This document shows, piece after piece, positions 2,255 to 3,035 of a DNA stretch of 64,000 bases (its first letter is position 1; each line of letters opens with the position of its first letter). Location: contig OX392533.1 in assembly GCA_947623455.1 (NCBI GenBank), forward strand, positions 35,508,729 to 35,572,728, given 5' to 3'. Made by a program: the position numbers and the translations under genes. This DNA is from Mimachlamys varia. Its lineage: Eukaryota > Mollusca > Bivalvia > Pectinida > Pectinidae. The notes beneath the pieces are model-generated. The model saw only the letters and a program-made list of their open reading frames with translations, made no database searches and was not told where the DNA came from.

Positions 2255-2891
2255 CACAGACTTACCTCCCCATTGGTTGAGGTATTTCTCCAAGTTATCG
2301 CAGTCCAGTTTTGTACGACAGAAGATTAAGTTACGCAAACTTATCTCCCCTTATTGGTTGAGGTATTTCTCCAAGTTATCGCAGTCCAGTTTTGTACGAC
2401 AGAAGATTTAGTTATATACTTACCTCCCCTTTGGTTGAGGTATTTCTCCAAGCTATCGCAGTCCAGTTTTGTACGACAGAAGATTCAGTTTTATACTTAC
2501 CTCCCCTTTGGTTGAGGTATTTCTCCAAGTTGTCGCAGTCCAGTTTTGTACGACAGAAGATTCAGTTATATACTTACCTCCCCTTTGGTTGAGGTATTTC
2601 TCCAAGCTATCGCAGTCCAGTTTTGTACGACAGAAGATTTCGTTACGCAGACTTATCTCCCCTTATTGGTTGAGGTATTTCTCTAAGGTATCGCAGTCCA
2701 GTATTGTATAACAGATGATTTAGTTACACAGCCTTACCTCCCCTTTGGTTAAGGTATTTCTCCAAGTTATCGCAGTCCAGTTTTGTACGACAGAAGATTC
2801 AGTTATATACTTACCTCCCCTTTGGTTAAGGGATTTCTCCAAGTTATCGCAGTCCAGTTTTGTACAACAGAAGATTCAGTTATATACTTAC
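2255..2891 (-). repeat. Minisatellite made from the DDX1 exon end and its splice donor
   Basis: Eight direct copies follow the exon on the minus strand, with donor-site anchors at 2261, 2340, 2419, 2496, 2573, 2652, 2733 and 2810. The real exon's anchor is at 2887, so the period is 76-81 bp. Each unit is roughly the last 60 nt of the exon (motif IV region) plus about 17 nt of intron including the 5' splice site. Six copies keep the GGAG|GTAAG donor; copies at 2340 and 2652 read GGAGATAAG, so the donor GT is lost. Most copies share two bases that differ from the real exon (CTG GAC TGC GAT against CTC GAC TGT GAT); both differences are synonymous. Confidence 0.92.
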
Positions 2892-3035
2892 CTCCCCTTT
2901 GGTTGAGGTATTTCTCCAAGTTATCACAGTCGAGTTTTGTACGACAGAAGATGAGGGCCTGGTCCATCTTGTGTTCCTCTAAAGCCTTGATCACATACTC
3001 TCCCTTCAGAACCTTGACTGCCTCTGAGTAATTTT
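2892..3035 (-). CDS. DDX1: DDX1 internal exon (DEAD-box RNA helicase, motif IV region)
   Basis: DDX1 is an ATP-dependent DEAD-box RNA helicase with a SPRY insert; in animals it works in tRNA ligase and RNA-repair complexes. This 144-nt exon encodes about 47 residues at the start of the second RecA domain, including KVLKGEY, a helical EEHKMDQ stretch and helicase motif IV (ALIFCRTKLDCDNLEKYL), which is how DDX1 was recognised. On the minus strand the acceptor is ttacag|AAAATT (AG at 3036-3037) and the donor is GGGGAG|gtaagt (2886-2891). One base of a codon precedes the exon and one base of the next codon ends it, so both introns are phase 1 and skipping would keep frame while removing motif IV. 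No flanking DDX1 exon was recognised in the window, so the neighbouring introns are long or extend outside it. There are no internal stops, and the exon looks functional. Confidence 0.9.

Follow-up and report, generated by a model that had tools for sequence, protein, structure and literature searches.

How does a cell recognise the end of an exon when that end, together with its 5' splice site, is repeated again and again directly downstream? The question is raised by a 64,000-nt stretch of the genome of the scallop Mimachlamys varia (GCA_947623455.1, contig OX392533.1, forward-strand positions 35,508,729 to 35,572,728; hereafter the window), in which the initial annotation noticed eight direct copies of the end of a DDX1 exon and its donor adjoining the true exon, six of them with a GTAAG donor.

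Results

A tandem array of exon ends at a DDX1 donor

A tandem-repeat scan and a listing of donor sites bore out this description in its coordinates and counts. Exon E1 of DDX1 occupies 2892–3035 on the minus strand (144 nt; acceptor TTACAG, donor GTAAGT at 2891–2886), encodes part of the helicase core, aligns to human residues 483–531, and carries a motif that we take to be helicase motif IV. The array, on the same strand at 2260–2952, comprises the last 61 nt of E1 and eight further copies; it was detected with a period of 77, 8.9 copies and a score of 1086, and also with a 314-bp higher-order period, equal to four units, that scores 1214, while the top TRF score among 300 dinucleotide shuffles of window positions 2200–3100 was 65. 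Each unit joins 61 nt of exon end to 16 nt of intron, and nine units, the exon copy included, lie head to tail. The copies measure 77–81 nt, with spacings of 77 (five times), 79 (once) and 81 (twice). Nine AG(G/A)TAAG sites were listed on the minus strand, namely the true donor (GT at 2891–2890) and those of the eight copies, of which 6/8 read GTAAG and 2/8 ATAAG.

Reading away from the exon, copy c1 (2799–2875) has its decoy GTAAGT at 2814–2809, c2 (79 nt; 2720–2798) has GTAAGG at 2737–2732, and c3 (81 nt; 2639–2719) has a donor mutated to ATAAGT. Copies c4 (2562–2638), c5 (2485–2561) and c6 (2408–2484) carry GTAAGT at 2577–2572, 2500–2495 and 2423–2418, respectively, and the donor of c7 (81 nt; 2327–2407) is again mutated to ATAAGT. 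The last copy, c8 (2260–2326), is cut within its intron part; its decoy GTAAGT lies at 2265–2260, and unique intron begins directly after it. Two synonymous sites set exon E1 apart from every one of the eight copies, indicating that exon and array have not lately been homogenised together.

The gene that bears the array is intact. Eight exons, E1–E8, encode the C-terminal half of DDX1; E1–E7 end in GT, all eight are preceded by AG, and when joined they give an open frame of 250 residues plus a stop codon. The C-terminal 251 amino acids are 93% identical to Mizuhopecten yessoensis DDX1 (P0001). When the genome was searched at protein level with a human sequence as the query, further DDX1 exons were placed on contig C7 up to 35,780,942, and no second copy of DDX1-specific exons was present among the 61 matches. 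About 234 kb separate the match to residues 417–448 from E1, so that the intron upstream of E1 may reach ~234 kb, while the downstream intron is 7.4 kb. Neither the window nor the 40 kb below yielded any DDX1 exon besides E1–E8, and an additional exon for residues 449–482 is possible further upstream.

Two other origins that had been raised for the repeats could be set aside: the intact exons E1–E8, with their frame open to the stop codon, give no sign of a DDX1 pseudogene, and a dispersed element or introner, which would have copies at many loci, is contradicted by a query of the 975-Mb genome with the 77-nt unit, which matched at nine places (counts here being lower bounds), all at this locus and corresponding to the exon and its eight copies.

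The E1 donor is not alone in this anatomy. At the E4 donor an array adds 45 copies of a 41-bp unit, and at the E6 donor another adds 7 copies of a 68-bp unit; both units are again composed of exon end, donor and intron start. Arrays thus lie at 3/7 DDX1 donors (E1, E4 and E6) versus 0/8 acceptors.

Arrays at the splice sites of other genes

We sampled 120 exons from three families: the best 30 of 92 Helicase_C matches, the best 30 of 52 Cpn60 matches, and 60 of 131 kinesin matches. The Helicase_C set includes near-identical transposon-like copies (e.g. L023, L024 and L029), which lower its array rate. The kinesin matches were the highest-listed ones after exclusion of two intronless matches located on small contigs, of most near-identical copies on contig C10, and of several that contained internal stops or introns. 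Separately, small contigs C33, C60 and C63 bear long intronless kinesin or helicase matches, and may be foreign contigs or retrocopies.

Arrays span 13/120 donors (Helicase_C L041 and L042; Cpn60 L048; kinesin L081, L092, L099, L103, L104, L111, L116, L117, L128 and L131) and 5/120 acceptors (L030, L042, L093, L102 and L103). Abutting arrays without a clear exonic part (L049, L067, L077, L114, L119, L129 and L130) were not counted. Two exons, L042 (C7:2584353) and L103 (C10:3033300), have arrays over acceptor and donor both. In 11 further exons that lay within the fetched loci, no array was found (0/11).

The null was the frequency with which intronic positions lying 250 bp or more away from an exon fall inside the first unit of an array, taken from helicase and Cpn60 flanks only and not from kinesin introns; at 2.3% of 142,860 positions (95% interval 1.2–3.7%), it predicts 2.73 per 120. 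Donors exceed this expectation (13 versus 2.73, P 3.9e-6, or P 4.9e-4 when the upper limit of the null's interval is used), and acceptors stand at 5 versus 2.73 (P 0.14). Two donors are doubtful, L128 with few exonic bases and L048 with an inferred exon end, as is acceptor L102, with six exonic bases; without the two donors 11 remain (P 1.0e-4). Compared directly, donors outnumber acceptors by 13 to 5 (P 0.096), by 15 to 5 if DDX1 E4 and E6 are added (P 0.041), and by 11 to 4 without the doubtful cases (P 0.12).

The donor excess rests mainly on the kinesin exons, at 10/60; helicase and Cpn60 donors alone give 3/60 (P 0.16 versus the null), and the difference between families has P 0.075. Because of that 3/60, and because the null was built on helicase and Cpn60 flanks rather than kinesin introns, the donor array rate of 10.8% (6.4–17.7%) is a first estimate. 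Exon-derived arrays that carry a donor had initially been considered unusual; with two more at DDX1 donors and 13 among the 120 sampled donors of other genes, that view is not supported for this genome.

Decoy donors and the reading frame

The three DDX1 arrays contain 56 GTARG decoys, 6 at E1, 43 at E4 and 7 at E6, and every one (56/56) would, if used, bring the reading frame to a premature stop. The suggestion that the array might add repeat-encoded residues consequently appears unlikely, as these stops are joined by the Mizuhopecten DDX1 alignment, which has no gap and no extra residues at any of the three array-bearing junctions (E1, E4 and E6).

Across 15 arrays, the decoy GT is retained in 144/147 copies (by ungapped matching, which misses the two ATAAG copies of the E1 array), indicating that decoys are not being purged. 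There is a hint that the exonic part of the copies varies less than intronic positions +7 to +10 (46/1323 versus 76/588 variable cells), the copies not being independent of one another. A unit length that is a multiple of three was seen in 1/16 donor arrays (3 from DDX1 and 13 from the sample) versus 21/68 other arrays (Fisher P 0.058).

Discussion

The E1 array belongs to a known kind, the "mirage" minisatellites of amphioxus, a name given in that literature to such arrays in Adh3 and the globins BflGb6 and BflGb9 (PMC3087553); amphioxus PGBD5 also has one (PMC3902484). Its tandem units span an exon–intron boundary, it adjoins an authentic exon of an intact gene, and 6/8 of its units carry an AG/GTAAG junction. 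Amphioxus mirages share with the scallop arrays units that span the boundary beside a real exon, many with splice signals, as well as an edge copy that lies outside homogenisation, as the two synonymous differences of E1 illustrate here. The scallop arrays differ in occurring in a mollusc, in reaching up to 45 extra copies, and in lying at more donors than acceptors in our sample. Among the open-access papers listed as literature matches, we found no report of mirages in molluscs.

A human counterpart is the 31-bp VNTR of CBS, c.1444_1467+7(16_21) (PMC2630376), which is also designated exon 13-intron 13 (PMC1395315). Like the E1 array it spans a donor, and its notation implies a unit of 24 nt from the exon's end plus 7 nt of intron, present 16–21 times; unlike the scallop arrays, it is a single human locus, with variation known between people. 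A further parallel is the model of intron gain by tandem genomic duplication (PMC4974935), in which, as in the scallop arrays, a segment with splice signals is duplicated in tandem; in scallop DDX1, by contrast, an existing intron has only grown, and no new intron was seen. We know of no other CBS exon that bears an array of this type.

We consider it probable that the E1 mirage is spliced out unnoticed, with the upstream donor winning under exon definition, and that surviving mirages therefore sit mainly on donors. The array would have originated in a tandem duplication across the E1 exon–donor junction and grown by unequal exchange or slippage to nine units, eight of them intronic. Its true donor comes first among the seven GT donors that follow the acceptor; long flanking introns would cause the exon to be recognised as a unit, the upstream donor would be used, and the whole array would be removed together with the intron, leaving the decoys near-neutral and subject merely to decay. 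Where minigenes offered two identical strong donors and had long introns, the upstream donor alone was used, an exon-definition rule derived from human cells (PMC9225289); at competing 3' splice sites the upstream preference persists, reduced under exon definition. From these two-donor minigenes we predict little cryptic splicing at the array donors, and amphioxus mirages were reported to leave splicing undisturbed by RT-PCR (PMC3087553). The cell probably ignores these rows of perfect-looking false splice sites.

An upstream-wins rule would make donor arrays better tolerated than acceptor arrays. The decoys of an acceptor mirage lie upstream of the true acceptor, so that such duplications would be harmful and lost, leaving surviving mirages mainly on donors. 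An excess of donor arrays over the intronic background would need something more: functional donors may promote duplication, or the selected exon copy may keep the array recognisable. That exon copy, held by selection, may be the anchor that keeps an array alike, and selection may also act against frame-keeping mirages. More broadly, we tentatively raise the possibility that functional 5' splice sites give rise to minisatellites or retain them, with about one in ten internal exons bearing a donor array and thousands of genes transcribing ladders of decoys that are spliced at the first donor.

The chief alternative is chance: the genome would turn sequence of any kind into tandem arrays, and seeds would sometimes hit exon ends without any true preference for donors. 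Arrays are plentiful, filling 36% of a 104-kb region at the locus (the window plus 40 kb below; period of at least 10) and reaching a density of 0.23 per kb across 60 exon loci; several in the window grew from intergenic-looking or SINE-like sequence, and the helicase and Cpn60 donors taken alone fall within the null. We nevertheless regard this explanation as unlikely in view of the full donor count against its expectation, the lower acceptor count, and the three arrays among seven DDX1 donors.

Regulated use of the decoys, with premature stops reducing DDX1 output through nonsense-mediated decay, would fit the uniform outcome of the 56 GTARG decoys, as well as a decoy GT that is less variable than the exonic part (3/294 versus 46/1323, P 0.023). 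That difference shrinks to 5/298 (P 0.14) once the two ATAAG copies missed by matching are added, again among copies that are not independent, and kinesins and other genes without common regulation share the array anatomy; we thus hold such poison splicing to be improbable, and prefer an array that would be passed over by the splicing machinery.

Equally improbable is the idea that donor-like DNA itself seeds arrays, so that donors would be mutational hot spots regardless of their function. Its attraction lies in the 14-mer AAGGGGAGGTAACT, a minisatellite core in this genome that overlaps the donor consensus: it occurs 2281 times genome-wide (933 + 1348) versus 10 (5 + 5) for the reversed pattern, both singly and in arrays of several periods, and the E1 junction, one base off AAGGGGAGGTAACT, occurs 180 times versus 5. 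However, the 68 arrays located away from exon ends show no enrichment in donor-like motifs (AGGTAA 4, with 2.9 in shuffles; GGTAAG 0, with 1.75; GTAAGT 2, with 2.25), which speaks against the motif alone as the cause, and the E4, E6 and kinesin mirages lack the GGGGAGGTAA core. A literature search for AAGGGGAGGTAACT and related strings returned three matches only, all unrelated. An assembly artefact, a pseudogene or a dispersed element is scarcely credible as the source of the array, as nothing was found in favour of any of them, the exons are intact, the unit was found at this locus alone, and an artefact of 0.7 kb is unlikely in an assembly described as 44x HiFi with a QV of 64.4 (PMC11252643).

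If the sample holds genome-wide, mirages would be a common, donor-biased kind of minisatellite outside cephalochordates, and material from which introns could grow or be gained. The scallop would then provide, in very large numbers, natural tests of the spliceosome's choice between identical donors, for which minigenes have had to be built elsewhere; with donor arrays on about one in ten internal exons, these would amount to a genome-wide natural experiment on exon definition. For genome annotation they serve as a warning, as gene models can be led astray by exon-derived repeats that carry good donors.

Other repeats in the window include arrays at 3790–8422 (46 bp x 100) and 46449–52498 (145 bp x 42). 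Two more, at 30067–31970 and 63756–64000, carry the core of the donor-like 14-mer. The unit of a 60-bp array at 62054–62535 resembles, by eye, part of a tRNA-derived SINE, and an open frame at 11527–12111 resembles, also by eye, the DNA-binding part of a mariner-type transposase.
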